From Desulfobacteraceae bacterium (GTDB lineage: Bacteria; Desulfobacterota; Desulfobacteria; Desulfobacterales; JAABRJ01), in contig JAJDNY010000158.1 in NCBI GenBank assembly GCA_022340425.1, positions 1 to 33,167 of the forward strand: DNA of 33,167 nt, written 5' to 3'. The position numbers were made by a program, and so were the translations under genes. The notes beneath the pieces are model-generated. The model saw nothing but the letters and a program-made list of their open reading frames with translations. It was not told the origin of the DNA and did no database searches. This document shows, one piece after another, positions 15,428 through 31,800 of the stretch. Every line of letters starts with the position of its first letter. Within the stretch, counting starts at the first letter, position 1.

Positions 15428-16360
15428 TTACACTTCGAGCCAGGAGTCGGAGAAGAGGGTTTCCCCGAGAATGACCTTGCAGGACTTGACGTAGTTGCGG
15501 ATTTCCTCGGACACGCTGTTGAGATCCGGGGCATTGCCGTCCATGGTGGCCTGGATGGCTTCGAAAATATCCGGCCGCTTGCCGTGGGCCAGGGCCATGG
15601 TGATGTCGTCCTTGCAATCGGCGATAAAGGACTGCATGCCGTGGATATTGAGCATGACCGTAAAGGTGACGTTCATCACGTGCCGCAGATGATCCGGAAT
15701 GCCGCTGGAGATGTTGGAGACCCCGCAGGTGCTCATGGCCCCGGGCATGATCTCCTGCAGCATGTCCATGAAGTTCATCAGGCTGATGGCCTGGGGCTGC
15801 TGGATGTTGACGGGGGTCACGAGGCCGTCCACCCACATCTGATCGTTGGGGATGCCGGCCTCGTTGGCGACCGTCATCAGTTCCACCAGCAGGGCGGCGC
15901 GCTCGTTTTCGTCCCGCGGCAGGCCTTCGGGGCCCCACATCAGGGCGCAGAAATCGGCGTTGTACTTCGCCGCTATGGGCACCATGCGCTCGTAGCGCGC
16001 CTGCCGGACCATGATGGAGTTGATCATCTTGGGCATCTTGCACTTGGGCAGGGCGGCCTCGATGGCGTCGATGTTGGACGTGTCGAGCACCAGGGGAACA
16101 TCGTCGACCACCTCCTGGACCACTTCCACGACCCACGGCATCAACTCATGACCGTCTTTCTTGGCCGGACCGAGGTTGATGTCGATCATATCAACACCCT
16201 TGGATTTCTGGAAAAGGGCTTCCTCCTGGATGGGCTTGGGGTCGCGCTCCTTGAAGGCCTTGCCGATTTTGGTCCCGATAACGTTCAAGCTCTCGCCGAT
16301 GACCCAGAACTCGCCGACATCCTTTTTGGGCCGCAGTACTTCGATCAGTTTATCCGCCAT
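15428..16360 (-). CDS. acsE: methyltetrahydrofolate:corrinoid/iron-sulfur protein methyltransferase AcsE
   Basis: This 310-aa pterin-binding TIM barrel moves the methyl group of 5-methyl-tetrahydrofolate to Co(I) of the corrinoid iron-sulfur protein, the entry step of the methyl branch into acetyl-CoA synthase. Family words are IGESLNVIG at 21-29, IDINLGPAKKDG at 59-70 (pterin-binding Asp/Asn) and LVLDTSN near 90. It is longer than the well-studied Moorella enzyme (262 aa), by about 48 residues, partly in a C-terminal tail. GGAGGAAA before the ATG supports the start. It lies 117 nt after acsC, with a strong hairpin in the spacer, and is the last gene before the terminator-like hairpin. Confidence 0.95.
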   Translation of the reverse strand: MADKLIEVLRPKKDVGEFWVIGESLNVIGTKIGKAFKERDPKPIQEEALFQKSKGVDMIDINLGPAKKDGHELMPWVVEVVQEVVDDVPLVLDTSNIDAIEAALPKCKMPKMINSIMVRQARYERMVPIAAKYNADFCALMWGPEGLPRDENERAALLVELMTVANEAGIPNDQMWVDGLVTPVNIQQPQAISLMNFMDMLQEIMPGAMSTCGVSNISSGIPDHLRHVMNVTFTVMLNIHGMQSFIADCKDDITMALAHGKRPDIFEAIQATMDGNAPDLNSVSEEIRNYVKSCKVILGETLFSDSWLEV

Positions 16361-16445
16361 ACAAATTTCCTCCTACCTCGTTGTAGAGTTATACCGCTTG
16401 ACAGCGCACTGAAAAACCGCTTGGCGTGCAGTGCTGTCCGACCTT

Positions 16446-16465
16446 GCGGGGCCTTGCGGCCCCGC
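16446..16465 (-). other. GC hairpin with GCAA tetraloop in the acsC-acsE spacer
   Basis: On the minus strand an 8-bp perfect stem GCGGGGCC/GGCCCCGC closes a GCAA (GNRA-type) tetraloop, 12 nt after the acsC stop. It has no U-tract directly after it. A second weaker stem-loop follows. It may protect the upstream mRNA from 3' exonucleases rather than terminate. Confidence 0.55.
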
Positions 16466-16477
16466 AGACGACGGGCA

Positions 16478-17821
16478 TCAAACCTTCTGCTTCAGAAACG
16501 CCGACAGATGGGCCGCTTCCCGCGGGCCGACGGTGATCGTCCAGCCGGGCAGCTCTTCCTCGACGTCACCGGCAATCGCCGCGGCATAGCCCGGGATGAT
16601 CAGTTCGGTGTGCTTGACCTTGTCCATGATGCCGCATTTTTTGACGAACATGCCGACTTCGTCTCCGTTGAACTTGCCGGCCGCCCAGGCGGTCATGACC
16701 GAAAGCCCCTCGGAGTCCTTGATCAACAGCCAAGCCGGGACCTTGCTGGCTTCCACTTCGCCGGAAACGATAAAATAGGTCAGGGCGAAGTTGGTGGTCA
16801 CCAACACGGGCGAATTTTCATCGGGGTTGTTGATGGGGTAGATGTCTTCGGTGACCGTCATGGGGCGCTGGGGGTCGGTGAAGATGTTGAGCCGCTCCAG
16901 CAGCAGCGGGAAGAGGTTTTCACCGGTGAAATCCGAGAGGATCACGATGCTGCCGTACTTGGCGATGAACATGCTGGCGATCAGGGTTTCCATGTCCAGG
17001 TTGCCGGCCATTTCGCAGGGGAAGGCGATCGTCGGGAAGCCCACGGCACGGTTGCCGTTTTTAAGCGCCGCGCGCCGGATGGCCACCTGGTCTTCCAGGG
17101 CGGCCTTGATTTCACGTGACCCGGGGTCCAGCACGATGGTCTTGATGCCCATCCCCACGAGCTTCTCGGTGAGCGGCGGCAGGCCCTCCACCGAATCGGC
17201 CTTTACCGCCAGGGGCAGACCGTTTTCCTTGGCCAGCGCACTGTAGGCATCGATATTGGCGGCGGTGGCGGCATACATCAGCGGCTGTTTGAAGCCGGCG
17301 GCCTCGATGCCAGCCTTCATGACCTCGACGTCGTCGGTCATCAGCACCAGGTTGAACTCGGAGGTCTCGGCAATCGTCTTGGCGGCCGCACCGAAGGCCG
17401 CTTTGTCGCCGTTGACGTCCTTGAGGGCGACCAGCTCCGGCCGCAGGTTGAGCCCCACCCGCTCGTACTGCAGCGCGTTCCACGCCTTGAGCTTGGTCTT
17501 CAGGGCGTCGGCGACGATATCCGAGGGCACCAGGGCCCCCAGGGCGGTGGGGTTGAAAAATGTTTTTTCGTGGCGGTACATGACGGTTTCGCCGCCCACC
17601 TGAAACTTCCGGACCCCCTTGCCGATGGCGACCGGCAGAATCGGCGGGGCCGAGGCCTCCGCCAGCTTCTCACGGGCCTCGTCGGATACGTAGGGGCAAT
17701 CGTCCAGGCTGGCCTTGCCCGATGCCAGGTTCATGGCGAAGGCAAGGCAGGTGGGCACCCCGCACTCCTTGCAGTTGGTTTTGGGCAGAAGTTTGAAAAT
17801 CTGAATACCGGTTAATGCCAT
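16478..17821 (-). CDS. acsC: corrinoid/iron-sulfur protein large (gamma) subunit AcsC
   Basis: This 447-aa subunit carries the cobamide and the low-potential cluster of CFeSP, which ferries the methyl group from AcsE to acetyl-CoA synthase. The N-terminal [4Fe-4S] site is Cys17, Cys20, Cys25 and Cys42 (NCKECGVPTC, then DDCPY), identical in spacing to the Moorella protein. A TIM-barrel domain and the C-terminal cobamide-binding domain follow. The length is as expected. The ribosome site AAAGGAG lies before the ATG. It lies 113 nt after acsB; that spacer carries an 11-bp GC hairpin. The partner small subunit AcsD is encoded first in the operon, not next to it. Confidence 0.96.
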   Translation of the reverse strand: MALTGIQIFKLLPKTNCKECGVPTCLAFAMNLASGKASLDDCPYVSDEAREKLAEASAPPILPVAIGKGVRKFQVGGETVMYRHEKTFFNPTALGALVPSDIVADALKTKLKAWNALQYERVGLNLRPELVALKDVNGDKAAFGAAAKTIAETSEFNLVLMTDDVEVMKAGIEAAGFKQPLMYAATAANIDAYSALAKENGLPLAVKADSVEGLPPLTEKLVGMGIKTIVLDPGSREIKAALEDQVAIRRAALKNGNRAVGFPTIAFPCEMAGNLDMETLIASMFIAKYGSIVILSDFTGENLFPLLLERLNIFTDPQRPMTVTEDIYPINNPDENSPVLVTTNFALTYFIVSGEVEASKVPAWLLIKDSEGLSVMTAWAAGKFNGDEVGMFVKKCGIMDKVKHTELIIPGYAAAIAGDVEEELPGWTITVGPREAAHLSAFLKQKV

Positions 17822-17890
17822 ATTGGGTTCTCCTTTTAGGATTTAAATTGCGCACCGCGTTTCAGGTTTGCCCGCCTCCCCCCGGATTGT

Positions 17891-17914
17891 AGGGCGGGCG
17901 CACGCGCCCGCCCT
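17891..17914 (-). other. 11-bp GC hairpin in the acsB-acsC spacer
   Basis: Arms 17891-17901 and 17904-17914 are perfect inverted repeats (AGGGCGGGCGC pairs with GCGCCCGCCCT) around two bases, allowing 9-10 pairs and a small loop in RNA. No U-run follows on either strand. It lies 20 nt after the acsB stop, as an mRNA 3'-stabilising element would. Confidence 0.55.
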
Positions 17915-17934
17915 GTTCCAACCGGTCGGACAGA

Positions 17935-20148
17935 TTAACCGACAATGGGCTCCATGGTGAGGGCCGGATGGCCTTTTTCCTGGAGGAAGGACATGATCTC
18001 CTCCTCCGTGGTGCCCACGGTCTCGTCGGCGATCATGTCGTAGAGGTTCTCACAGCCCATCTCCTTGCCGCGGGCGATGATGCGGTCCTTGATCTCCTCC
18101 TTGAGCATCTTGGGCATCCAGACCATGCGCAGCAGCCCGCCGTCGCCGACGATGAACTTGCGCTGGGTGATGTTGTACTTGGAGTGCCCCACAAACCCCG
18201 GCGATGAAGCCCCGCCGCCCATGACGCCGGCCAGGGTGGTGAACTTCATGCCGCAGGGGGTCTCGCCGGCGTACTCGCGGTTGACCGTCATGACCCCGTT
18301 ACAGCCCGGCAGCAGCGCCGCGATGCACTCGCAGCAGCCGCAGGTGGTCATGGGGTCGACCACCATCGAGTAGAAGTTGTAGTGGGTGATGGCGCCGCGG
18401 GAGGCCTTGGTAACGAACTCGTTGACCCCTTTCCACTGACCCAGCTTGGGATCCAGGCATTCGCCCTTTTCGATGGGCTGGTTGGGACCGGTGGGGTTGA
18501 TCTCATAAGAGGCCTTGCAGTCCATCCAGTTGTAGGCGCCGCAGAGGCCGGTGCGCTCGGGGCTGACGGTACAGACGTGGGTGGGTGCGAAGGACTGGCA
18601 CAGGGTGCAGGAGTAGAAGGTCTCCTCGCTTTCGTCGGTCATGGTGTCAACTCGCGCGTCGCGCATCTTATACTCCGCGCGGGCCCTGGCGGTCAGCTTG
18701 TCCACATCCTCCTTCTTGGTGTAGAGGGTGACCTGGACCTTGTCGATGATCTTGGTGAAATCCTGGTGGAACTTGGCATGCAGGACGACGCCGATGTCTT
18801 TGAAGGTAAAGCCCTTCTCCACCGCCGCCTTGCTCACCCGGATCCAGGCGATATCGCGCTGGCCGATGTGCATCACGTACTGGATGTAGTTCACCAGGTG
18901 GTGGATCTGGCGCTCGATGATGGGCTCGAAGTCCGCCTGGAATTCGCGGCCGGCCACCTGCACGTAGATCCCCAGGGGCAAGACATCGCCCTGTTTGAGG
19001 TCGGGGATGTCGGGGCCGATCACGGTGACCTTGCCGTCCTCGATCTCGTTCATTTCGGCCATCTTGACCAGTTCGGTGCACTGGGTCTTACCGCCGCCCA
19101 TCTGGCAGAAGAGATCCGCCCCGCGCACCCGCTCGCCCTCGAAGGCCGGGCCGAAGGCGCACGGGATGTCGATCTTGGTCACCTGGACCTTGAGGCCGCG
19201 CACTTCGATGGAGCGCTGGGCCATCTCCTCGTGCTTGACGTTGGCCACGACGTGCTCGTAGGTGCAGATACCGGTGGGCAGAATTTCGGGGATGTCGGTG
19301 TCGGCCAGGGTCGGAAAACCCCAGTTGACGCAGCCGGCGGCCGCCGCGGCCCACTCGGCGTTGACGTCGCCCAGGGCGTTGACGAAGGCGAAGATGCGGT
19401 TTTTGTTGTAGAGCAGGATCTTGCGGTAATCGCCGGGCTGCACCCCGCCGAAGGCCATGGCCGCGCGGTTGGCGAAGCCGAGGGCGAAGATCGCCGAGGA
19501 GATGTCCGGCCCGAAGGGCACGATGCGGGTGTTCCAGCCGATCTGGACCCCGGCCTCGAGCAGCTGCTGGCTGACGGTGGTCCCGTTCTGGTTGGCGGCG
19601 CAGAAAATGTAGAGGGATTTCTGCTGGTATTCCTCCACGATCAGCTTGGCAGTTTCGGGATCCGGGGCCGCGCCGACGATGGCGGCGAAACCCGGGGCCG
19701 AACCATCGACGAATTCCACCCCGCGCTTGCGGAAAACGGTGTCGTCGGCGGCGCCCAGCCAGATCTTGCCGGCCTCCTCGTCGATCTCCTCGGAGTGCAG
19801 GTAGAAATCCGGGTCCTCCAGGTAGCGGATCGCCTCCTGGATTTCAAAGGCGAACAGGGCGGCCATGCCGGCGTCCAGCAGGGGCCCGAGGTACGGCAGG
19901 TGGTGCTTGCCCTTGAGGTGCGGCGGCAGGAGCTTGCGGGCGATCTCCAGCGGCTTTTGCATGTCCTCGAGGGTTTCCACCTTGTGGCCGGTCAGAGAGT
20001 AGATGACCGGCAGGAAGTAGGCGGTGTTGGGGAAGCCGACCTTGGTGGCGGCCTCGTGTTTTTCCAATGTGGTCTTGAGTAGACCTTCGACCTTGGAGAC
20101 GATGTTGTAGCCACCCTGGATGGCCGCAAATGCTACGAGTTTAGACAT
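17935..20148 (-). CDS. acsB: acetyl-CoA synthase catalytic (beta) subunit AcsB
   Basis: This 737-aa enzyme joins the CFeSP methyl group, CO from CODH and CoA into acetyl-CoA, and in sulfate reducers can also run in reverse. The A-cluster residues are all present: Cys514, Cys517, Cys526 and Cys536 for the [4Fe-4S] part (CTLCQSFAPTHVC, then GLCGAYNW) and Cys603-Gly-Cys605 (TTCGCCEC) for the distal nickel. Each sits eight residues later than in the Moorella protein. The N-terminal domain that docks on CODH is present, so this is the bacterial full-length form and not the shorter archaeal CdhC. AAGGAGG precedes the ATG. It follows cooS by 38 nt. Confidence 0.97.
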   Translation of the reverse strand: MSKLVAFAAIQGGYNIVSKVEGLLKTTLEKHEAATKVGFPNTAYFLPVIYSLTGHKVETLEDMQKPLEIARKLLPPHLKGKHHLPYLGPLLDAGMAALFAFEIQEAIRYLEDPDFYLHSEEIDEEAGKIWLGAADDTVFRKRGVEFVDGSAPGFAAIVGAAPDPETAKLIVEEYQQKSLYIFCAANQNGTTVSQQLLEAGVQIGWNTRIVPFGPDISSAIFALGFANRAAMAFGGVQPGDYRKILLYNKNRIFAFVNALGDVNAEWAAAAAGCVNWGFPTLADTDIPEILPTGICTYEHVVANVKHEEMAQRSIEVRGLKVQVTKIDIPCAFGPAFEGERVRGADLFCQMGGGKTQCTELVKMAEMNEIEDGKVTVIGPDIPDLKQGDVLPLGIYVQVAGREFQADFEPIIERQIHHLVNYIQYVMHIGQRDIAWIRVSKAAVEKGFTFKDIGVVLHAKFHQDFTKIIDKVQVTLYTKKEDVDKLTARARAEYKMRDARVDTMTDESEETFYSCTLCQSFAPTHVCTVSPERTGLCGAYNWMDCKASYEINPTGPNQPIEKGECLDPKLGQWKGVNEFVTKASRGAITHYNFYSMVVDPMTTCGCCECIAALLPGCNGVMTVNREYAGETPCGMKFTTLAGVMGGGASSPGFVGHSKYNITQRKFIVGDGGLLRMVWMPKMLKEEIKDRIIARGKEMGCENLYDMIADETVGTTEEEIMSFLQEKGHPALTMEPIVG

Positions 20149-20186
20149 ACCTTCCTCCTTCGTTGAGGATTTAAAATGAATTTATG

Positions 20187-22232
20187 TTAAGCCACATCCA
20201 ATTTCTGGCGGTCGGCCATGTCCATCAGGACCCGTTCGCGGGCCTTGTCGATGCCCAGCGCCTTGCGCTTCTTGTCGATGTGGGCGATCATTTTGCGCGC
20301 ATGCAGGATCGGGTCGACTTCCAGGTCCCACATGCCGCCGTACATCTTCTCGAATTCCTCGAAGAGATACTTCTGGAACTTGGGCGCCCCGGTCACCGGC
20401 AGGGTCACGCCGAAGACCGTGTAGACGCCGGAGGCGACGAAATAGTGCCCGATGCTGATGGCCTTCTCGCTCATCCACTCGGGGGCGCTGCCGGCCGCCG
20501 GCAGGTCACTGATGTCGTTGCCCAGCCCGCCAGCCTTGACCACCTCGGCGGCCGCCAGCAGGATGCGGCTGTTGTCCACACAGGAGCCCATGTGCAGGAC
20601 CGGCGGGATGCCGACGGTCTCACAGACCTCCGCCAGCCCGGGGCCGCAGAAGACGCCGGCGGTTTCCGGGGTCAGCAGCCCTTCCATGGCGCAGGCGATG
20701 CCGTTGCAGCCGGTGGTCAGGACGATGACGTCGTTTTTGATGAGCTCCTTGACCACCTCGATGTGGCCCTCGTTGTGGCGGGTGCGGGCGTTGTTGCAAC
20801 CGACGACGCCGGCAATGCCCCGGATGCGGCCGTTGATGATGTTGTCGTTGAGGGTGAAGTAGGAGCCGCGGAAGGTGCCGCCCAGGTGATACTGGATCGA
20901 TTCGACGCCAAAGCCGGCGATCTGGGTGGCCTTGTGTTTGGGGATCATCACGTCGGCGCCGCGGTTTTGGAAGTTGTCGATGGCGATCTTGATGATCTTT
21001 TTGGCGTCCTCCATGGCGTAGTGCTCATCGAATTCGATGTGCATCACGTTGTCCTGCTCCATGCGGGCGATGGGATGCGTGGTGATCACCTTGGTGTGGA
21101 AGCACTTGGCCACGTTGGCGATGTTCTGGAAGATGCACTGGATGTCCACCACCATGGCATCCACCGCGCCGGTGATGATGGCCAGTTCCTGCTGCAGAAA
21201 GGTGCCGCAGAGCGGCACGCCGTGGCGCTGCAACACCTCGTTGGCGGTACAGCAGATCCCGCTCAACTGGAGCCCCTTGGCGCCCTTGGACTTGGCGTAG
21301 TCTTGAATTTCCTGGGTCTGGGCGGCGGCCACGATCATCTCCGAGAGCACCGGCTCGTGCCCATGGATGACGAGGTTGACGTGGTCCTCTTTCAGCACGC
21401 CCAGGTTGGCCTCGGACTGCAGGGGGTAGGGGGTGCCGAAGAGCACGTCCTGGAGGTCGGTGGCCAGCATCGAGCCGCCCCAACCGTCGGCGATGGCGGC
21501 CCGGGTGCCCTGCTTCATCAGGTTTTTGTAGTCCTGGTCAACCCCGATGTGGGTGCGGTGCATGATCTCGACGATCTCGCGGTCGATGTTGCGGGGCAGC
21601 ACGCCGAACTTCTTCCACTTTTCATAGAGCGCCTCGGGGGCGCGTTTGAGGTAGTGCAGCTCGCCCTCGGGCTTGCCCCACTCGCCCATGGCGACATCGG
21701 CGACCTCCTTCGCTATTTCGTCGGTGTCGCGGTCAAGCTCCTGGCCGTCCACGGTCACCTTGGTGGCCACCCCCAGCCAGGGGGCGATTTCCAGCAGCTT
21801 GTTGGTGTCCTTGATGTGGTAGTCTTCGGTCTCCTTGTAGGCGGCGGACTTGAAGACCTCGGCCACGCAGCGGCCGTGATCGGAGTGGGCCGCGGCCCCG
21901 CCGGCGATCATACGGATGAAATTGCGCGCGGCGATGGTGTTGGGGGTGGCCCCGCAGAGCCCCTTGCGGTCGTCGCTGTTCTCGTCATAGTCCTTGGGCA
22001 GCGGCAGGCGGCAGGGTCCCATGCCGCAGTTCTTGCAGCAAATCCCCTGGGTGCCGATATTGCAGGGCTTCATGGCCGCGGCGCGGTCAAATACCGTGTC
22101 GATGCCCAGCGCCTGGGCCCGTCGAATCATCTCCTGGGAGGCGGTGTCGATGGTGGCGCCCACGGGGTCCGCAAGCTTGTCCTTTTTGGCGGTTTTGAGT
22201 TCCTTAGCGGCTTTTACTACTTCTTCTGCCAT
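20187..22232 (-). CDS. acsA: anaerobic carbon monoxide dehydrogenase catalytic subunit (CooS/AcsA)
   Basis: This 681-aa Ni-Fe-S enzyme reduces CO2 to CO for acetyl-CoA synthase, or oxidises CO. The N-terminal cysteines of the D and B clusters are Cys57, Cys65, Cys66, Cys69 and Cys74 (PCNIGTQGICCKNCGMGPC), followed by the LCGATPNTIAARN segment with the last B-cluster Cys. NLVIHGHEPVLSE holds the His ligand side of the C-cluster, and later GCNGIACAMEGL and MGSCVDNSR supply C-cluster cysteines. Length fits the ACS-bound type (about 670-680 aa). I chose the ATG at 22232, preceded by GAGGAGGAA; the frame is open six codons further. No cooC-type nickel-insertion ATPase gene is present in the window. 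Confidence 0.96.
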   Translation of the reverse strand: MAEEVVKAAKELKTAKKDKLADPVGATIDTASQEMIRRAQALGIDTVFDRAAAMKPCNIGTQGICCKNCGMGPCRLPLPKDYDENSDDRKGLCGATPNTIAARNFIRMIAGGAAAHSDHGRCVAEVFKSAAYKETEDYHIKDTNKLLEIAPWLGVATKVTVDGQELDRDTDEIAKEVADVAMGEWGKPEGELHYLKRAPEALYEKWKKFGVLPRNIDREIVEIMHRTHIGVDQDYKNLMKQGTRAAIADGWGGSMLATDLQDVLFGTPYPLQSEANLGVLKEDHVNLVIHGHEPVLSEMIVAAAQTQEIQDYAKSKGAKGLQLSGICCTANEVLQRHGVPLCGTFLQQELAIITGAVDAMVVDIQCIFQNIANVAKCFHTKVITTHPIARMEQDNVMHIEFDEHYAMEDAKKIIKIAIDNFQNRGADVMIPKHKATQIAGFGVESIQYHLGGTFRGSYFTLNDNIINGRIRGIAGVVGCNNARTRHNEGHIEVVKELIKNDVIVLTTGCNGIACAMEGLLTPETAGVFCGPGLAEVCETVGIPPVLHMGSCVDNSRILLAAAEVVKAGGLGNDISDLPAAGSAPEWMSEKAISIGHYFVASGVYTVFGVTLPVTGAPKFQKYLFEEFEKMYGGMWDLEVDPILHARKMIAHIDKKRKALGIDKARERVLMDMADRQKLDVA

Positions 22233-22307
22233 TTTTCGGTTCCTCCTCAACGTTGAATGAACTGCGGTACTTCGAAAACGACATGTTCAAATGGCGTCAG
22301 GCTGCCT

Positions 22308-23891
22308 TCAGGAAGCGTGGCGTCGGTGAATCCACTGCAGTTTGTCGACGACCTTGTCGATGCTGGGCTTCTGGACTTCGGCGGGGGTCTTCTTGACCTC
22401 GCCGGCGGCCTTGGCCGCACCGTGGGCACCGCTTTGGGCCATCCGGGCCTCGCGTTCTTTGGCCCGCTTGGCGCGGATCTCGTCCATTTCGGCCTCGATC
22501 TTGGCCTTCTCGGCCGCGGCGGCCTGGGCTTCGGCATCCGCCTTGGCCTTGGCTTCGGCCTCGGCTTTGGCCTTGGCATCCGCTTCGGCCTTGGCCTTGG
22601 CCTCGGCTTCGGCTTTGGCCTTGGCTTCCGCATCGGCCTTGGCCTGGGCTTCCGCCGCCGCTTTGGCCTTGGCTTCGGCCTCCGGATCGACCGCGGGTGC
22701 CTCCTTTACCGGGGCGGGCTTGGCTTCAGCCGCCGGTGCCGGGGCGGCCTTGGCTGCCGGTGCGGGTTTGGCGGCCGGAGCGGCCGGTGCGGCCTTGGCG
22801 GCGGCAGCCGGAGCGGCTTTGGCAGCCGGCGCGCCTTTCTTCTTTTCTTCCGTGATGGTCAGGTCCGGCTCCGGGGCGAGCGCGGCCAGGTCGATATCGA
22901 CATCATCCAGCCGTTTGGCGACGGGGGCGACCTCAGCGGCGGCGCCGCCGGCCAGGGCCAGATCGATGAAGGAGCGCACCATTCGAGCGGATTCGGGGTG
23001 ACGCATGATAAGCACATCCGAGCCGGCCAGGAGGTAAGTCACGGCCCCAACGGCCTCCATCATGATGGCCCGTCTTTCAGGGTCCCCCAGGATCGGCGCC
23101 TCATCCACGGGCTGTTTGGCCTCCTTGCACTTCCAGACCTCGTTGCCCAGGTTGTTGATGATCGGAAACTGCAGTTTGTCGTCCCCCTGGTTCATGGCCG
23201 CCATGCGCAGGCGCTCCATCACCGAGTAGCTGTACTCCATGCCGTAGCCCAGCCCGCCGGTGGTGGGGTCAATAATCACGCGGTTCATCGGGACACCGAG
23301 GTTTTCGAGCAGGATGTTGACCTGTTTGGCGAGGTTGACGTCGATCGGGGAGGAGGAGATGATGACGTGGCCGTAGCCCATGGCGGCAGCCCCGATGCCC
23401 TTGTGGTTGGCATCTTCCACAGGCCCGATCACCAGGGTGTGATCCTGGCATTCCTCGGCCACTTTCTTGAATACCGCCTCGTCCTTCTTGACGTTGGCGG
23501 TGCCCCAGGCGATCAGCGGAACGTTGATCGCGTCGGCGACTTTCTTGACGGTTTGGGCGGCGGCCTCGGGACTGGCGTCGTTGCCGTTGGGGTCGGTGCT
23601 TTTCAACTGCAGCACGATCAGGTCGGCGCCGTAGGATTCGATGCATTTCTTGGCCCATGCCACCGGATCTGAAACGACATCCTCGAAGGGTTTGAGCGCG
23701 GCTGCGGGCCAATCATCGGGTTTGATGTCCCAGACTTCCATCGCGATTTTGGGCTTGCAGGGCATCTTCCCCTCGAACTGGTAGAAGGGGTAGCATGTTT
23801 CCCCACCGACAGTGACCGCCTTGTTGCCACTGCCCAAGGTGATTTCCTTTATGCTCCCGGCATAAGATTCTTTGTAAAATTCGAAGCCCAA
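22308..23891 (-). CDS. acsD: corrinoid/iron-sulfur protein small (delta) subunit AcsD with long repeat-rich C-terminus
   Basis: Residues 1 to about 312 form the TIM-barrel small subunit of CFeSP, which with AcsC binds the cobamide (FEGKMPCKPKIAMEVWD, LQLKSTDPNG, IIDPTTGGLGYGMEYSYSVMERLR). Known AcsD/CdhD proteins end near 310-320 residues. Here about 215 more follow: an acidic stretch (DDVDIDLAALAPEPDL), an Ala/Pro/Lys linker (about 345-400), a helix built of EAKAKAEA-type repeats (about 402-475), and a basic tail ending VVDKLQWIHRRHAS. The repeat helix resembles TolA domain II or a single alpha-helix spacer. It may tether the methyl carrier to ACS/CODH or to another surface; this is inference. 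It is the first gene of the operon, 75 nt before cooS. The ribosome site AAGGAGG precedes the ATG. Confidence 0.92.
   Translation of the reverse strand: MGFEFYKESYAGSIKEITLGSGNKAVTVGGETCYPFYQFEGKMPCKPKIAMEVWDIKPDDWPAAALKPFEDVVSDPVAWAKKCIESYGADLIVLQLKSTDPNGNDASPEAAAQTVKKVADAINVPLIAWGTANVKKDEAVFKKVAEECQDHTLVIGPVEDANHKGIGAAAMGYGHVIISSSPIDVNLAKQVNILLENLGVPMNRVIIDPTTGGLGYGMEYSYSVMERLRMAAMNQGDDKLQFPIINNLGNEVWKCKEAKQPVDEAPILGDPERRAIMMEAVGAVTYLLAGSDVLIMRHPESARMVRSFIDLALAGGAAAEVAPVAKRLDDVDIDLAALAPEPDLTITEEKKKGAPAAKAAPAAAAKAAPAAPAAKPAPAAKAAPAPAAEAKPAPVKEAPAVDPEAEAKAKAAAEAQAKADAEAKAKAEAEAKAKAEADAKAKAEAEAKAKADAEAQAAAAEKAKIEAEMDEIRAKRAKEREARMAQSGAHGAAKAAGEVKKTPAEVQKPSIDKVVDKLQWIHRRHAS
22490..22690 (-). 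repeat. degenerate in-frame repeats encoding Ala/Glu/Lys-rich helix of AcsD
   Basis: Short units of 12-24 bases (variants of GCCAAGGCCGAAGC on the minus strand) are repeated in tandem within the acsD 3' part. They translate to EAKAKA, EAEAKA and DAKAKA words. Such DNA is prone to slippage, so repeat number may vary between strains and may be misassembled. Confidence 0.7.
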
Positions 23892-24319: not shown

Positions 24320-26266
24320 TCAGGGTGCCACGTGGCGGCGCGCCGCCATCCGCTCCTTGACCTTGGGAAACAGATCGATGTCGGTGTGGGGCAGGAAAAG
24401 CGCCGCCACGTAGTGATCCATATAGGAGGTGGTCTCCGACAGCTCGAAGTTGGTCATCATCCGGGTGACTGCCGTCACGTCCCGCCGGATGCGGTTGGTA
24501 AGCGAGCTCATGCGGGCCCCCAGAAGCGAGCTGTTGCCCACGAAGATCACCTTGTCCAGGTCGATTTCGGGTAAGAGCCCGATGGTCATGGCCTTTTCGA
24601 GATCCACGTAGCTGCCGAAGCCGCCGGCCAGAATGATCCGCTCCAGATTTTCGATGCCCAGCCCGACCTCGTCCAGAAGGGTCATGCAGCCGCTGTACAT
24701 GGCGCCCTTTGCGCGGATCAGGTTGTCGATGTCGATTTCGGTGAGCACGACATCACGGCCGATCTGGGTAACGTCGGCACGGGCGAGCACATACTCCCAG
24801 ATGCCGTCGGTTTCGCGCACGCGGTCGGTGGGCAGATCACGGTTGAACTTGCCCAGGTTGTCGATCACGCCGGCCTCGAAGAGCGCGGCGACGATGTTGA
24901 TCAGGCCGGAGCCGCAGATGCCCCGCACCCCGACGTTGCCGACGGTGATGTTCATCGGCTCCAGGGTCAGCGGGTCCAGCGAGAAGTCCTCGATGGCGCC
25001 CTTTTCGGCGCGCATCCCGAATTTGATCCCCCCGCCCTCGAAGGCCGGGCCCGCCGAGCAGGCGGCGCAGGCCATCCAGTCCTTGTTGCCGATGACGATC
25101 TCGGCGTTGGTGCCGATGTCCATGAAAAGCGTCAGTTCCTCGCGCAGGTACATGCCCGAGCCCATCACCCCGGCCACGATATCCCCGCCGACGTAGCTGG
25201 AGATCTGCGGGTAGAAAAGCGCCATGGCGTGGTCGCCGAGGGCCAGCCCCAGGTCCACCGCACGGATCGGGGGGTAGAGGGTGGAGGCCGGCACATACGG
25301 CGAACGCCGCAGGTAGCGCGGGCTGATGCCGCAGAAAAGCTGAGTCATGGTGGTGTTGCCGGCCAGGGTGATGTGGGTGATGTTGTCACGGTCGATGGCG
25401 GCCTTGCGCACGATCCGGTCGATGATCTGGTTGGTGGTTTTCAGAACGGCCGCTTGGAGCTTGTCCATGCCGTTTTTTTCGAAAAAAACGATCCGGCTGA
25501 TGACATCCTCGCCGTAGCTGATCTGGCCGTTGAAGTCCCCGTGCTGGGCCAGCACCTCGCCTGTGTCGAGGTCCAGCAGCTGGCCGAAGATGGTGGTGGT
25601 GCCGATGTCCACCGCCACGGCATAGGAGTGGCCGGTGGTGTCGCCGGCCTGGATGTTGATAATCCGGTTTTTGCCGTCGGGACGCACCGGCCGGGCGATT
25701 GTCGCGGTGACGCGGAAGTTGTCGGCCCGCAGGACATCGGGGATCTTGCGCAGCACCGGCAGGTCCACCTCCAGGCGGTGATCGCCGAAATGGACGTGCA
25801 GAAAGCTGATCAGACGGGTGACGTCCGGCAGGTTGTCCTGGGCGGTGGGCTCGGGCAACTCCAGAAAGCGCTTTTCAACCGGCGGCACAAAGAGCCCCTG
25901 CTCCTTGAGGTCGTTGAAGTTCATCTGCCGGATGCGCGCGGTGCGCCGCTCGGCCACAGTCCGGTTGAGCACGCTGGCGTCGACGGCCGATTCGATCGGA
26001 ATGCGTACGACGGCATCGCTGAGAACCCGGGTCTGACAGGCCAGGCGGACGCCGGCGGCGATGTCCGCTTGGCTGAGCTTCTCGCTGATCCCCCCTTCGA
26101 CCTCGCCGCTTTCGATGACAACGCGGCATTTGCCGCAGACCCCCTCCCCGCCGCAGGAGGCGTTGATATGCACCCCGGCCGCCATCGCGGCCCGGATCAG
26201 CGGCTCCCCCGCGTTCAGGGTGGCCTTGAGGTTGTGGGGCAGGAATGTGACGCTAAAGCTGCTCAT
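24320..26266 (-). CDS. acsV: reductive activator of corrinoid/iron-sulfur protein (RACo, AcsV type)
   Basis: This 648-aa protein restores inactive Co(II) CFeSP to Co(I) at the cost of ATP. The N-terminal plant-type [2Fe-2S] site is Cys38, Cys44, Cys47 and Cys77 (SCGGEGVCGKC, then LACQTR). A linker and a middle region follow, then an ASKHA ATPase fold (DUF4445 family), with VAVDIGTTTIFGQLLD near 215-230, DIGTNAEIV and GGFGSY later. Length fits the family (about 620-650). AGGAG six bases before the ATG at 26266 sets the start; the frame stays open 25 codons upstream without a site. It lies 81 nt after the CoA-transferase-GNAT gene in the same direction and before the ACS operon, which has its own promoter. 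Close relatives reactivate methyltransferase corrinoid proteins, but the neighbours favour CFeSP. Confidence 0.88.
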   Translation of the reverse strand: MSSFSVTFLPHNLKATLNAGEPLIRAAMAAGVHINASCGGEGVCGKCRVVIESGEVEGGISEKLSQADIAAGVRLACQTRVLSDAVVRIPIESAVDASVLNRTVAERRTARIRQMNFNDLKEQGLFVPPVEKRFLELPEPTAQDNLPDVTRLISFLHVHFGDHRLEVDLPVLRKIPDVLRADNFRVTATIARPVRPDGKNRIINIQAGDTTGHSYAVAVDIGTTTIFGQLLDLDTGEVLAQHGDFNGQISYGEDVISRIVFFEKNGMDKLQAAVLKTTNQIIDRIVRKAAIDRDNITHITLAGNTTMTQLFCGISPRYLRRSPYVPASTLYPPIRAVDLGLALGDHAMALFYPQISSYVGGDIVAGVMGSGMYLREELTLFMDIGTNAEIVIGNKDWMACAACSAGPAFEGGGIKFGMRAEKGAIEDFSLDPLTLEPMNITVGNVGVRGICGSGLINIVAALFEAGVIDNLGKFNRDLPTDRVRETDGIWEYVLARADVTQIGRDVVLTEIDIDNLIRAKGAMYSGCMTLLDEVGLGIENLERIILAGGFGSYVDLEKAMTIGLLPEIDLDKVIFVGNSSLLGARMSSLTNRIRRDVTAVTRMMTNFELSETTSYMDHYVAALFLPHTDIDLFPKVKERMAARRHVAP

Positions 26267-26347
26267 TTCAGCTCCTAAGGTGTTTGAGAAAGATGGTGAA
26301 GGAACGGCGGCCCCGGAGGGTGCGCGGGTGGCCGTCGGCATTCGCCT

Positions 26348-28243
26348 TCAGCCGCCGGCCTTGCCCGCGCTGAGCGGGGCGTCGAACCTGCAGCTGAGGG
26401 CCAGCATGTCGCCGTCGAAAACCGTTTTGACCTTGTAGGGCAGATAGCTGAACAGCCGGATCATCCCCTGGTTCTGAGGTGAGGTGTAGGCCACCAGCCC
26501 GGAGATGCCGTTTTCGCGCGCCGCCTCTGCCAGCTTGCGGATCAGAACCCGCCCCAGCCCCTTGCCCTGGTACTCGCGGCTGACCGAAAAGGCCACCTCG
26601 GCCAGGTTGGCGGCCGGGTCCAGCAGGTACTCCCCCACGGCGACGACCTTGCCGAAGCCAAATTCCCCCACCAGGGCCAGGATGGTCAGGTCGTTGACGT
26701 AGTCGATGGCGTACATTGTCTCCACGTCGCCCCGCAGGAAGCTGGTTTTCTCATGAAAGAAGCGCGAGATGATATCGGCCTTGTCGAGATTGTAGAAATG
26801 CTCCTGGATCCGGCGCTCGTCCACCGGTTTGGACGGCCGGATGGTGATCTCTTCGCCGTCGACCTCGATGATTTCCTCCAGCTTGACGGGGTAAACGCCG
26901 TGGACCGACTCCTTCAGGGTGCGCTCGGCCCCCAGCAGCCCCATCTCTTTGGCCCGGCTGAGAAGCTCCTCGCGAAAATCGGGATGCGCGATGCTGATCA
27001 TTGCCATGGCACGCTCCTGCAAGCTCTTGCCGAAGAGGTTGACCGCCCCGTATTCGGTCACCACGTAATGCACGTCGCCGCGCGGAACCACCACCGCGGT
27101 GTCGCCCAGGATCGGCACGATCCGGCTTTTGGTCCCCTGCTCGGCGGTGGCGGGCAGCATCAGGATGGCCTTGCCGCCTTCGGACTGCGCCGCCCCGCGC
27201 ATGAAGTCCACCATTCCGGTGACCCCCGAAAAGTGGTTGTGGGGCAAGGCGTCGGCGGCCACCTGGCCGGTGAGGTCCATGGCCATGGCGACATTCATGG
27301 AAACCATTTTGTTGTGCCGGGAAATGATGCTGGGGTCGTTGACGTAGTCGGAGGGATAGAACTCGATGGAGGGGTTGTCATCCAGAAATTCATACAGGTT
27401 CTGGGTGCCGATGGCGCTGCTGGCCACCAGCTTGCCCTCGTTGAAGCCCTTCTTGCGGTTGGTGACGACCCCTTCGGAGACCAGCCGCATCAGCCCGTCG
27501 GTGATGTACTGGGTATGGACCCCCAGATCGTTTTTGTTCGAAAGAGCCAGCAGGGTGGCCTGGGGGGTGGCCCCCAGGCTGATTTCAATGGTGGAGCCGT
27601 CCTCGATCAGGCGGGCGATCAGCCGCCCGATGGTGTTGGCCGATTCCATGTCGGGCATGCGCCCGACGGTCAGAACGTCCTCTTCGTGCTCCACGATGAC
27701 GTCGACGTCGTTGACGTGAATGAAGCTGCGCCCCAGGATGCGGGGCATGCGGCTGTTGACCTGGGCGATCACCAGATCGGCCGAGAGGGCCGCGGCCAGG
27801 GTGATGTCCACCGAAACCCCCAGACTCATCCAGCCGAAATCGTCCGGTGCGCTGACCTGGATCAGCGCCACGTGGATGGGCAGCCGGCGGCTCTTGAAGA
27901 GCCGCGGGACCGCCGAGAGGTTGATGGGCGTAATGAAGCGCTTGTTCTGGGCGATATGCTTGGGGCTGCCTGAGCCCAGGTAAAAGGATCGGATATTGAG
28001 GTTCTGGCACTGGGTCTTGTCGGCGATCAAGGTCAGCGGGGTGGTCTCCAGCGTCAGCAGCCGAATGATTTCCAGATCGGTCAGGCGGCTGGAAACAGCC
28101 GAAAGCGCCCGCACCAGGCACTGCGGCTCGCCGCAGGAGGACCCGATAAAAACCCGTCTGCCGGGTCGGATCAGGCTGATCGCCTCGGTTGCCGAGCGCT
28201 TTTTCTCGACGTAACTGTCCGCCCAATAACCTGAAGTCGCCAT
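26348..28243 (-). CDS. acetyl-CoA hydrolase/transferase family protein fused to a GNAT domain
   Basis: This 631-aa protein joins two enzymes. Residues 1 to about 440 form a class I CoA-transferase of the 4-hydroxybutyrate/acetyl-CoA hydrolase type, with SSAIGTQNLYEFLDDNP (about 265-281), LPHNHFSGVTGMVDFMRGA and the TEYGAVNLFG segment (Glu397). Residues from about 470 form a GNAT acyltransferase, with the acetyl-CoA loop in REYQGKGLGRVLIRKL. The CoA-transferase part should exchange CoA between acyl-CoA and a carboxylate, but Gln245 stands in VHTQYITDG where characterised enzymes carry a catalytic Glu. The GNAT part may acetylate a protein lysine. GGGAG precedes the ATG. It heads the unit with RACo and is divergent from the TRAP transporter genes, so acyl-CoA activation of an imported carboxylate is a reasonable guess. 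Confidence 0.88.
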   Translation of the reverse strand: MATSGYWADSYVEKKRSATEAISLIRPGRRVFIGSSCGEPQCLVRALSAVSSRLTDLEIIRLLTLETTPLTLIADKTQCQNLNIRSFYLGSGSPKHIAQNKRFITPINLSAVPRLFKSRRLPIHVALIQVSAPDDFGWMSLGVSVDITLAAALSADLVIAQVNSRMPRILGRSFIHVNDVDVIVEHEEDVLTVGRMPDMESANTIGRLIARLIEDGSTIEISLGATPQATLLALSNKNDLGVHTQYITDGLMRLVSEGVVTNRKKGFNEGKLVASSAIGTQNLYEFLDDNPSIEFYPSDYVNDPSIISRHNKMVSMNVAMAMDLTGQVAADALPHNHFSGVTGMVDFMRGAAQSEGGKAILMLPATAEQGTKSRIVPILGDTAVVVPRGDVHYVVTEYGAVNLFGKSLQERAMAMISIAHPDFREELLSRAKEMGLLGAERTLKESVHGVYPVKLEEIIEVDGEEITIRPSKPVDERRIQEHFYNLDKADIISRFFHEKTSFLRGDVETMYAIDYVNDLTILALVGEFGFGKVVAVGEYLLDPAANLAEVAFSVSREYQGKGLGRVLIRKLAEAARENGISGLVAYTSPQNQGMIRLFSYLPYKVKTVFDGDMLALSCRFDAPLSAGKAGG

Positions 28244-28639
28244 TTCACTCCCTTGTGATGAAGGTGGTTCCGATTCTTGCAGCTCGCCGGCCGCCTGTGC
28301 GGCCCGGCCGGGGCCCCCGGGGCGCCCGCGGCCGCGGGCGCCTGCAACAGCCCGGCAGCAGCTTTATCAAGTTTCCCTTCGGCAAACAAGCCCTTTCGGC
28401 CAAAATTCCGCAAGTTAGCGACAGCGGCGCACCGCTCTGGCAAGGCGTGCGGTGCCCGTCGGCAGCCGCACCGGCCGGAAAAAGGGCTAAACCCTAAATG
28501 CAGTTCAATTGTTATTGTCAACTTCAACAGTTGACAATTCATCATGAGAAATTTAAAGAACGACAAATGAAATTTTCGCCCCGGTGAGTCAAACGTCGAC
28601 CGGCCCCACTGGGGTAGCGCTAACCCAAGGATGGTCCCA
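28244..28639. other. 396-bp divergent intergenic region
   Basis: No gene is supported here. The half near the CoA-transferase gene is very GC-rich and holds a perfect 22-bp palindrome of only G and C at 28321-28342 (core CCCGCGGCCGCGGG). The other half (28490-28570) is AT-rich and carries the operator-like repeat and promoter candidates. Confidence 0.5.
28514..28538. promoter_or_regulatory. operator-like inverted repeat overlapping divergent -35 boxes
   Basis: ATTGTCAAC (28514-28522) and GTTGACAAT (28530-28538) form a perfect 9-bp inverted repeat with a 7-base spacer. Each arm contains TTGACA, one per strand: 28531-28536 on plus, with TAAAGA 17 bases on, and 28516-28521 on minus, with TTTAGG 17 bases on. 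The -10 boxes are weak. The site lies about 100 bp before dctQ and 270 bp before the CoA-transferase gene, in an AT-rich patch. A dimeric regulator bound here could control both units. Confidence 0.55.
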
Positions 28640-29173
28640 ATGGAATCGCTCAAACGGCTCTGCAACTGGATCGACACTCTCAACAGCTGGATCGGCCGCG
28701 GCGTTTCGTGGGTTACGGGGCTGGTGGTGGCGGTGGTTTTTATCGACGTGGTGATGCGCTACACCATTCAAATGAGCTTCGTTTTCACCCAGGAGCTGGA
28801 ATGGCACCTCTTTGCCTTCATCTTTCTGATGGGCGCCGGCTACACCCTCCTCCAGGACGGGCATGTGCGGGTGGACATCATCTACCAGCAGCTGGGACCG
28901 CGCGCCCGGGCCTGGATCAACCTGATCGGGGTCATTTTTTTTCTCCTGCCGGGCTGCTACCTGATTTTTTCCACCTCCCTGAAATTCGTCTACAACTCCT
29001 GGAGCATCCTCGAAGGCTCCCCCGATCCCGGCGGCATCCCCTACCGCTTCATCATCAAGGCTGCCATCCCGGCCGGCTTTCTGCTGGTGGCCTTGCAGGG
29101 GGTTTCACTGGGCATCAAAAGCTGGTTCACCATCCGCGGCCTTGACCAGCCGCAAGAGCGGGAGGGGCGCTGA
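28640..29173 (+). CDS. dctQ: TRAP transporter small permease (DctQ family)
   Basis: This 177-aa membrane protein is the small subunit of a tripartite ATP-independent periplasmic transporter, which uses ion gradients to import carboxylates caught by a binding protein. It has four predicted membrane helices, at about 22-43, 50-75, 92-115 and 135-158, and the family words EWHLFAFIFLMGAGYTL and HVRVDI. I chose the ATG at 28640 because AAGG at 28627-28630 is well placed for it; an ATG at 28631 directly abuts that site and is unlikely. Its stop overlaps the dctM start by one base (TGATG), so the two are translationally coupled. Confidence 0.92.
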   Translation: MESLKRLCNWIDTLNSWIGRGVSWVTGLVVAVVFIDVVMRYTIQMSFVFTQELEWHLFAFIFLMGAGYTLLQDGHVRVDIIYQQLGPRARAWINLIGVIFFLLPGCYLIFSTSLKFVYNSWSILEGSPDPGGIPYRFIIKAAIPAGFLLVALQGVSLGIKSWFTIRGLDQPQEREGR

Positions 29174-30498
29174 TGGAATACCTGCCCGCCTGGATGTTTC
29201 TCGCCCTGACGATTCTCCTGATGGCCGGCTTCCCGGTCACCTTCACCCTGCTCGGCACCGCCCTTTTTTTCGGCCTGATCGGTTTCGGCTGGTCCTTTTT
29301 CAACCTGCTGCCGCTGCGGATCTGGGGCGTCATGACCAACGTCACCCTGCTGGCGGTGCCGCTTTTCGTTTTCATGGGGGTCATGCTGGAGCGCTCGGGG
29401 CTGGCCGAGGAGTTGCTGGACACCATGGGGCTGGTGTTCGGACGAATCCGCGGCGGGCTGGCAATATCGGTGATCGTGGTGGGCGCCCTGCTGGGCGCCT
29501 CAACCGGCATCGTGGGCGCCACCGTGGTCACCATGGGCCTGCTGGCGGTCCCAACCATGCTGAAACGCGGCTACCACAAGGAGCTCGCCACGGGCACCGT
29601 GTCGGCATCCGGCACCCTGGGGCAAATCATTCCCCCCAGCATCGTGCTGGTGCTGATCGGCGACATCGTCGGCGTGCCGGTCGGGGACCTGTTCATGGGT
29701 GCGGTGCTGCCCGGAATGGTCCTGGTGGGGTTGTACATCCTCTACGTCGTGCTGGCGGTCTGGATCCGGCCCGCCTGGGCGCCGAAAATTTCCAAGGCCG
29801 AAATGGCCGCTCTGACCCCGGCTGTGATGCTGCGCAAGGTCACCCGCGCCCTTTTTCCGCCGCTTTTTCTAATGGTGGCGGTCCTGGGGTCGATCTTTGC
29901 CGGGGTGGCCTCCCCCACCGAGGCGGCCGCGGTGGGTGCGGTGGGGGCCACCGCCCTGACTGTCGCCAACCGCAAGTTCAATCTCGCCATGCTCCAGGAG
30001 GTGATGGACGCCACCCTCAAGCTGACCTGCATGGTGTTTATCATCCTGGTGGGCGCGGCCGCTTTCGGCCTGGTGTTCCGCGGCATGGGCGGCGATCATC
30101 TGGTGCGCGGTTTCCTGGGGGGCATCGCCGAGAATCACGGCAAGTGGTTCGTCCTGGCCTTCGTCATGGGCCTGATCTTCGTGATCGGTTTTTTCCTGGA
30201 TTTTATCGAAATCACCTTTATCCACGTGCCGGTTCTGGCCCCCATCATGATCGAGTTCGGCTTCGACCCGATCTGGTTCTGCATCCTGATCGCCGTCAAC
30301 CTGCAGACCTCCTTCATGACGCCGCCGTTTGGCTTCTCCCTGTTCTATCTCAAGGCGGTCACCCCGCCGGAAATCTCAACCGGCAATATCTACCGGGGCA
30401 TCATCCCGTTTGTCTTCTTTCAGCTGATAGGCCTGTTGATCGTGGTGTTTTTCCCGGATCTGGTGACGTGGCTGCCCAAGGTGGTCTTTGGCCTTTGA
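29173..30498 (+). CDS. dctM: TRAP transporter large permease (DctM family)
   Basis: This 441-aa protein is the ion-coupled translocation subunit, with about 12 hydrophobic helices along its length. Family words are GFPVTFTLLGTALFFGL near the start, GALLGASTGIVGATVVTMGLLAVPTML at about 115-140, SGTLGQIIPPSIVLVLIG, and near the end NLQTSFMTPPFGFSLFYLK. Length is typical (about 425-450). GGAGGGG just inside the end of dctQ is its ribosome site. A 12-bp palindrome GGGGCCGGCCCC (30514-30525) lies 16 nt after the stop, before a 198-bp AT-rich spacer leading to the binding-protein gene, which may set different expression for the two. Confidence 0.95.
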   Translation: MEYLPAWMFLALTILLMAGFPVTFTLLGTALFFGLIGFGWSFFNLLPLRIWGVMTNVTLLAVPLFVFMGVMLERSGLAEELLDTMGLVFGRIRGGLAISVIVVGALLGASTGIVGATVVTMGLLAVPTMLKRGYHKELATGTVSASGTLGQIIPPSIVLVLIGDIVGVPVGDLFMGAVLPGMVLVGLYILYVVLAVWIRPAWAPKISKAEMAALTPAVMLRKVTRALFPPLFLMVAVLGSIFAGVASPTEAAAVGAVGATALTVANRKFNLAMLQEVMDATLKLTCMVFIILVGAAAFGLVFRGMGGDHLVRGFLGGIAENHGKWFVLAFVMGLIFVIGFFLDFIEITFIHVPVLAPIMIEFGFDPIWFCILIAVNLQTSFMTPPFGFSLFYLKAVTPPEISTGNIYRGIIPFVFFQLIGLLIVVFFPDLVTWLPKVVFGL

Positions 30499-30696
30499 CA
30501 CTCGGAAAGGATCGGGGCCGGCCCCAACGGTAAGAAGCAGACATTCTCCATTTTTTGAATTTTATTCATTTTAAGAATTCTCTTTTAATTTCTCTTGATT
30601 TTATACCCATTCTCATTTAGCTTCCGGTTTTATGGACAAATGGGTTGGCGCACGTGAATTGGGGTTAACCGCAGACACGAAAGGGGAACGAGCCGG

Positions 30697-31800
30697 ATGA
30701 AAAGACGCGAATTTTTGAAGAAGTCAGGTGCCGCGGCCGCCGCCGTCGCCGCCAGCAGCGTGGCGGCACCGATCGTAATGGCCGCGGAGAAAACCTACAA
30801 CTGGAAGATGGTCACCACCTGGCCCCCCAACTTGCCGGTTCTGCAGACCGGGGCGGAAAGATTTGCCAAACGGGTGACGGAGATTTCCCAGGGCCGTATC
30901 AAAATAGAGGTTTTTGCGGCCGGTGAGCTGGTCCCGGCGCTGGGTGTATTCGACGCCGTTTCCGCCGGCACCGTCGAGGTGGGCAGCGGGGCCTCCTACT
31001 ACTGGGCCGGCAAAACGCCTGCCGCCCAGTGGTTCTCGTCGGTGCCCTTCGGCCTCAACCCCCAGGGGAACAACACCTGGTTCTACAGCGCCGGCGGGCT
31101 CCAGTTGTGGGAGGAGACCTATGCGCCGTTCAACGTCATCCCCCGCCCCCAGGGCAATACCGGCGTTCAGATGGGCGGCTGGTTCCGCAGAAAGATGAAC
31201 ACCATCGAGGACTTCAAGGGTCTCAAGATGCGCATCCCCGGGCTGGGCGGCAAGGTCGTGGCCAAGGCCGGCACCACCGTCGTGCTGCTGCCGGGAGGCG
31301 AGATTTTCACCTCGCTGGAGCGCGGCGTCATCGACGCCACCGAGTGGGTCGGCCCCCTGCTGGACCTGCGCGCCGGGTTCTACAAGGCCGCCCCGTACTA
31401 CTATTACCCCGGCTGGCACGAGCCCGGCACGACCCTCGAGGTGATTTTCAACAAGCAGGCCTACGAGTCCCTGCCCAAAGACCTCCAGGCATTGCTGGAC
31501 GCGGTGGCCATGGAAACCAACCTCTGGAGCCTCTGCGAAGCCGAGGCCGGAAACGGCGCCGCCCTTGAAACCCTGATCCGCGACCACAAGGTCAACCTCC
31601 TGAGCTTTCCCGAGCCGTTGATGAACGACCTTCGCAAAATCGCCAAGGAGGTCCTGGAAGAGGAAGCCGACAAGGACGCCCAGTCTCGCAAGGTGCACGA
31701 GGCCTTCAAAAAATTCCAGGCCCAAATCGGCGTCTGGGGTTCGGTCTCCGAGTACGCCTACTACAACGTCATCGCCGACAAGTTCAGCACCTCCGCCTGA
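30697..31800 (+). CDS. TRAP transporter substrate-binding protein, 2-oxo acid/lactate type, Tat signal
   Basis: This 367-aa periplasmic DctP-family protein delivers the substrate to DctQM. The N-terminus has a twin-arginine signal (KRREFLKK at 2-9, Ala-rich core, likely cut near residue 29), so it is exported folded, perhaps with a metal. The mature part has the segments MGGWFRRKMNTIEDFKG and MRIPGLGG, and from residue 216 EWVGPLLDLRAGFYKAAPYYY followed by GWHEPGTTLEV. These words are typical of the subgroup containing TakP (2-oxo acids) and the calcium-lactate binder of Thermus, so a small monocarboxylate such as pyruvate or lactate is the likeliest ligand. A purine-rich GAAAGGGGAACGAG precedes the ATG. 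The gene ends at a strong terminator. Confidence 0.92.
   Translation: MKRREFLKKSGAAAAAVAASSVAAPIVMAAEKTYNWKMVTTWPPNLPVLQTGAERFAKRVTEISQGRIKIEVFAAGELVPALGVFDAVSAGTVEVGSGASYYWAGKTPAAQWFSSVPFGLNPQGNNTWFYSAGGLQLWEETYAPFNVIPRPQGNTGVQMGGWFRRKMNTIEDFKGLKMRIPGLGGKVVAKAGTTVVLLPGGEIFTSLERGVIDATEWVGPLLDLRAGFYKAAPYYYYPGWHEPGTTLEVIFNKQAYESLPKDLQALLDAVAMETNLWSLCEAEAGNGAALETLIRDHKVNLLSFPEPLMNDLRKIAKEVLEEEADKDAQSRKVHEAFKKFQAQIGVWGSVSEYAYYNVIADKFSTSA

Follow-up and report, generated by a model that had tools for sequence, protein, structure and literature searches.

The stretch of DNA analysed here (the window) comprises 33,167 nucleotides from a Desulfobacteraceae bacterium whose genome spans 3.97 Mb in 209 contigs. 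Within it, two gene units diverge from a 387-bp intergenic region: a TRAP transporter operon, dctQMP, reads along the plus strand, and a unit encoding a CoA-transferase fused to a GNAT domain and a RACo-like corrinoid reductive activator reads along the minus strand, where CODH/ACS genes (about 15428-23891) adjoin this RACo/CoA-transferase block farther along. The block of RACo, CoA-transferase/GNAT and divergent dctQM genes (window 24320-31800; L095-L101) is also present in several of the order's families, which suggests a common route of carboxylate uptake and activation. Among the window proteins scanned, none scored over the cut-off of any transcription-regulator family, so the statement in a preliminary description of this DNA that no regulator gene lies nearby holds inside the contig as far as it was scanned. 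A 196-aa frame near the contig end (32402-32992) matched the Recombinase family (PF07508) below threshold.

Table 1. Genes and sequence elements at the divergent dctQMP and CoA-transferase/RACo locus (window coordinates).
Feature	Position	Strand	Remarks
RACo-like corrinoid reductive activator	24320..26341	-	PF14574, PF17651, PF17650, PF00111; AcsV model below its cut-off
CoA-transferase fused to GNAT domain	26348..28243	-	PF13336, PF02550, PF00583
TTGATA, probable -35 element of CoA-transferase/RACo unit	28365..28370	-	conserved element; about 143-145 bp from repeat
TAAATGCAGTTCA, degenerate TGAAT-N3-ATTCA copy	28495..28507	+	8/10 matches; 36 bp upstream of TTGACA
Perfect 10-5-10 inverted repeat, candidate operator	28514..28538		ATTGTCAACT-TCAAC-AGTTGACAAT
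TTGACA, minus-strand copy in repeat	28516..28521	-	TTTAGG at 17 bp, no good -10; not conserved in CoA-transferase upstream regions
Right-arm TTGACA, probable dctQMP -35 box	28531..28536	+	-100 from dctQ ATG; inferred for this copy
TAAAGA, weak candidate -10	28554..28559	+	17-bp spacing; 3/6 to TATAAT; not listed by consensus scan
dctQ, TRAP small permease	28631..29173	+	PF04290
dctM, TRAP large permease	29173..30498	+	PF06808; TIGR00786 over cut-off
dctP, TRAP solute-binding protein	30697..31800	+	PF03480

An AT-rich patch of the intergenic region holds a perfect inverted repeat, ATTGTCAACTTCAACAGTTGACAAT. The preliminary description had reported a perfect 9-7-9 repeat; its symmetry is indeed perfect, but positions 10 and 16 also pair, adding one pair to each arm and leaving arms of 10 and a loop of 5. 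TTGACA occurs on each strand of the repeat, as that description had noted, the minus-strand copy following automatically because the plus-strand copy sits in a palindrome. Counting perfect inverted repeats whose arms are 10 or longer and whose loops span 3-20 bases, we found seven across the window, whereas dinucleotide shuffles averaged 0.97; such a palindrome arose in 1.1% of 2000 shuffles of the 387-bp intergenic region and in 0.54% of 5000 shuffles of the 100-bp AT-rich patch. The repeat is thus locally unusual, but only modestly so once the 33-kb scan that brought it to notice is allowed for. A second, GC-rich perfect palindrome, GGCGCCCGCGGCCGCGGGCGCC, lies at 28321-28342, between the start of the CoA-transferase gene and its probable -35 element.

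For comparison we used a set of 389 genomes of the order, 107 of which had a dctM match. From these, 66 regions (about 60% of the 107) were prepared for analysis of dctQ, chosen by rank together with three picked for the gene pair; two (L077 and L132) were dropped because they had no dctQ match, leaving 64 dctQ upstream regions, those of 63 relatives and the window. Perfect palindromes with arms of at least 10 were present in 7 of these 64 real upstream regions, the window counted among them, so symmetry alone is weak evidence. The other six all have longer loops (8-14), and four are GC-rich.

The right-arm TTGACA is the probable -35 box of dctQMP, a reading drawn from the relatives, where the -35 of dctQ is similarly placed: TTGAC[AT] with a -10-like hexamer behind it was found on the sense strand in 23 of the 64 upstream regions, whereas the opposite strand had it in 4 and shuffles in 0.96. 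From this box the dctQ transcript is predicted to start at about 28567, which would put the centre of the repeat (28526) near -41, with its symmetry lying over a promoter element as in a promoter-overlapping operator of dctQMP.

The dctQ upstream regions of relatives carry a different palindrome, TGAAT-N3-ATTCA, which at 9 or more matches out of 10 appeared in 22 of the 64 regions against 1.9 in shuffles, an enrichment that is post hoc in that the motif was derived and counted in the same sequences, with the shuffles as control. It starts 17 bp upstream of TTGAC[AT] in six cases and 25-26 bp upstream in seven (L066, L067, L072, L075, L081, L090, L107, L111-L114, L116 and L092). Relaxing the match to 8 of 10 added, between 13 and 60 bp, one site at 24 bp, one at 57 bp and two at 36 bp, one of the latter being that of the window. 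The 36-bp spacing of this degenerate copy lies about one turn past the 17 and 25-26 bp of the relatives, and with a background of 0.0006 per position chance is an unlikely source of its placement, which thereby supports, independently, the reading of the right-arm TTGACA as the -35 box of dctQ. Like the repeat, the relatives' sites are palindromes placed by the dctQ -35 box; unlike it in sequence and position, they survive in the window only as the degenerate copy. This pattern suggests that the ancestral dctQ operator may have been TGAAT-N3-ATTCA and has decayed here.

On the other side of the intergenic region, the motif CTTG[AC][CT]AA occurred within 200 bases upstream of the CoA-transferase gene in 14 of 44 regions (including L004, L101, L107, L111, L112, L136, L137, L139 and L095). 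Shuffles gave 0.5 and the opposite strand 0; these are the two controls for a motif that was likewise derived and counted post hoc in the same sequences. In L107, L111, L112 and L092 a TATGAA lies 17 bp beyond the related TTG[AC][CT]A hexamer, and the CTTG[AC][CT]AA motif is likely to be the CoA-transferase promoter or a site overlapping it. Its counterpart in the window, the TTGATA listed in Table 1, is kept within a well-conserved block in the closest relative, G001, a member of the same genus whose CoA-transferase is 92% identical. The contig of G001 ends 169 bp upstream of the CoA-transferase gene, limiting the comparison to those bases, and a search for dctM in G001 at E 1e-120 returned no match there. 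Given this conserved -35-like element, transcription of the CoA-transferase unit probably begins far from the repeat, whose minus-strand TTGACA is probably just the mirror of the right arm.

A CoA-transferase gene divergent to dctQ was found in 16 of the 63 relatives, drawn from six other families; in one of them (L099) an MFS-type gene lies between the two. The repeat was absent from all 16, the best score being 13 of 20 positions, an absence that tells against the shared operator put forward in the preliminary description. The standard search covered 350 bases upstream; the gap is longer in L074, L082 and L099, and the whole gap was searched in 15 of the 16, including L074 and L082, with L099 covered over 350 bases.

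Searches for further copies placed the repeat once in its own genome (0-3 mismatches). The 9-5-9 pattern (18 central positions) had no second copy there at up to three mismatches, and the 9-7-9 pattern matched one further place, with three mismatches, in contig C75; the genome-wide regulon anticipated in the preliminary description thus came down to the window copy alone. A family-level search of two genomes matched only in the own genome. Order-wide, at up to two mismatches, 27 of 389 genomes had a match against about 42 of 389 for a reversed-pattern control (the latter figure a hand count from the results table), which is no enrichment. The exact 9-5-9 pattern was found at five loci in unrelated taxa (three bacterial and two archaeal records) of genome_contigs, a collection of 84,980 species, close to the 3.7 expected by our own arithmetic at uniform composition. 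A variant two mismatches off the central pattern, TTGTCAACTCGTAAACTTGGCAA, is identical in seven genomes (L037-L042, L046) of two genera in one family, where some 125 bp separate it from the end of a two-gene pair. The listing of published work on regulators of TRAP operons contained nothing on this site. Literature containing both half-site 8-mers was, by title, nearly all unrelated, the exception being a table of BirA sites (PMC545781). As far as the matching parts of three further papers go, the half-site matches were oligonucleotides of a UmuDAb binding site (PMC11332147), oligonucleotides with AAGTTGAT/ATCAACTT arms (PMC8516035) and primers (PMC9455977). The exact 9-5-9 pattern was absent from viral contigs, and the intergenic region had no match among plasmids and phages.

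The preliminary description read the repeat as a site at which one dimer covers both divergent -35 boxes, coupling transport to CoA transfer and corrinoid reactivation. That the operator-like palindrome lies over a plausible dctQMP -35 box stands; that it is common to both units does not, with the conserved promoter-like element of the CoA-transferase about 143 bp away from the repeat, a poor -10 behind the minus-strand TTGACA, and no conservation of the repeat along with the gene pair (0/16). TTGACA on both strands and the recurrence of the divergent pair in six further families within the order speak for a joint switch, and the hexamer 17 bp past the 28365-28370 element, TTGCAG, is a poor -10 that leaves room for a second CoA-transferase start near the repeat. 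On balance we consider such coupling improbable. The serious rival is chance, namely an ordinary -35 box with a functionless mirror to which nothing binds. The repeat is unique and unconserved, and palindromes of this size are found both in shuffled intergenic sequence (1.1%) and upstream of other dctQ genes (7/64), as this explanation predicts; yet the repeat is AT-rich and overlaps a promoter element, and its short loop measures 5 bases, whereas the other six have longer loops and are mostly GC-rich (4/6). We regard chance as unlikely, though it is the main alternative to be reckoned with.

Formation of an RNA hairpin in a leader transcript, with the 5-base loop closing a 10-pair stem, appears very improbable: the predicted energy of -12.3 kcal/mol over 61 nt is in its favour, but the z-score of only -1.62 is not exceptional, the predicted dctQ start falls downstream of the repeat, and there is no T-run on either side and no terminator called there. 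We give hardly any credence to a BirA-type box with contracted spacing, despite a close resemblance of the half-sites. In the table of PMC545781, the delta-proteobacterial box reads TTGTcAACC-N14-aGTTgACAA with a spacer of 14 or 15 in all listed sites, and the half-sites of the repeat (TTGTAAACC-like) agree with it in sequence and orientation, matching the Geobacter sulfurreducens bioB box of its Table 1 at 8 of 9 bases on the left and 9 of 9 on the right. The genome encodes a BirA ligase (L158, G000:C134) whose N-terminal extension, judged by eye from the translation, reads like a winged helix. The spacer of 5 against the tabulated 14 or 15, however, places the repeat outside this class; no biotin gene lies beside it, and normally spaced boxes turned up in 11 of the 58 genomes covered by a search but not in its own. 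No bioB scored over the curated cut-off in the genome, so that there is no BirA box of its own for comparison.

Two further families of sites were set aside by the orientation of their cores. LysR-type sites, a comparison proposed in the preliminary description, have a symmetric T-N11-A core, and symmetric positions 7 and 19 of the repeat read A-N11-T. The consensus of HcpR, the CRP/FNR-type regulator of sulfate reducers, has TTGAC/TTGTGA half-sites pointing inward, and the TTGAC of the repeat points outward.

We favour, at a probability of roughly one half, a lineage-specific and probably single-target candidate operator of dctQMP alone, lying over its -35 box. In this reading a homodimeric regulator, its gene lying elsewhere, would contact the half-sites TTGTCAACT and AGTTGACAA, about 14 bp apart centre to centre, at a candidate dimer site centred near -41 whose right arm holds the -35 box; the bound dimer would most likely exclude RNA polymerase from that box and so act as a repressor, although a class II activator is an alternative at this position. 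The CoA-transferase/RACo unit, started from its separate promoter about 143-145 bp off, would lie outside direct cover. The 10-5-10 symmetry (0.54% of patch shuffles), the placement of TTGACA, the degenerate TGAAT-N3-ATTCA copy and the separate CoA-transferase element argue for this reading. Weighing against it are the 0 of 16 relatives, the single copy, the want of order-wide enrichment, the weak TAAAGA, the 7 of 64 regions with palindromes and a regulator not found in the window, and we judge the operator role for dctQMP alone to be plausible but unproven.

Operators overlapping the -35 box form a general class among dimeric repressors of the TetR, GntR and MarR types. Like these, the repeat is a near-perfect palindrome, ~20-25 bp long, that covers part of the promoter of a transport operon; unlike them, it comes without a nearby cognate regulator gene, a second site or conservation, and with a half-site matched to no TetR, GntR or MarR family consensus. 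Seen together with the decayed TGAAT-N3-ATTCA copy, a candidate operator of dctQMP alone could also reflect regulatory rewiring, in which the older operator, common at related dctQ promoters and set in phase ahead of the -35 box, was replaced by a new single-target palindrome directly over that box. We think this quite unlikely; if true, it would mean a dedicated regulator for the transporter, uncoupled from the regulon of the relatives.

If bound, the repeat would reveal the switch of a carboxylate importer encoded beside a CODH/ACS cluster and would offer an example of operator replacement confined to one site. At present, more is gained from the two conserved promoter-like elements that flank a recurring gene pair: with one such element on each side, the transporter and the CoA-transferase/RACo unit are probably started separately.
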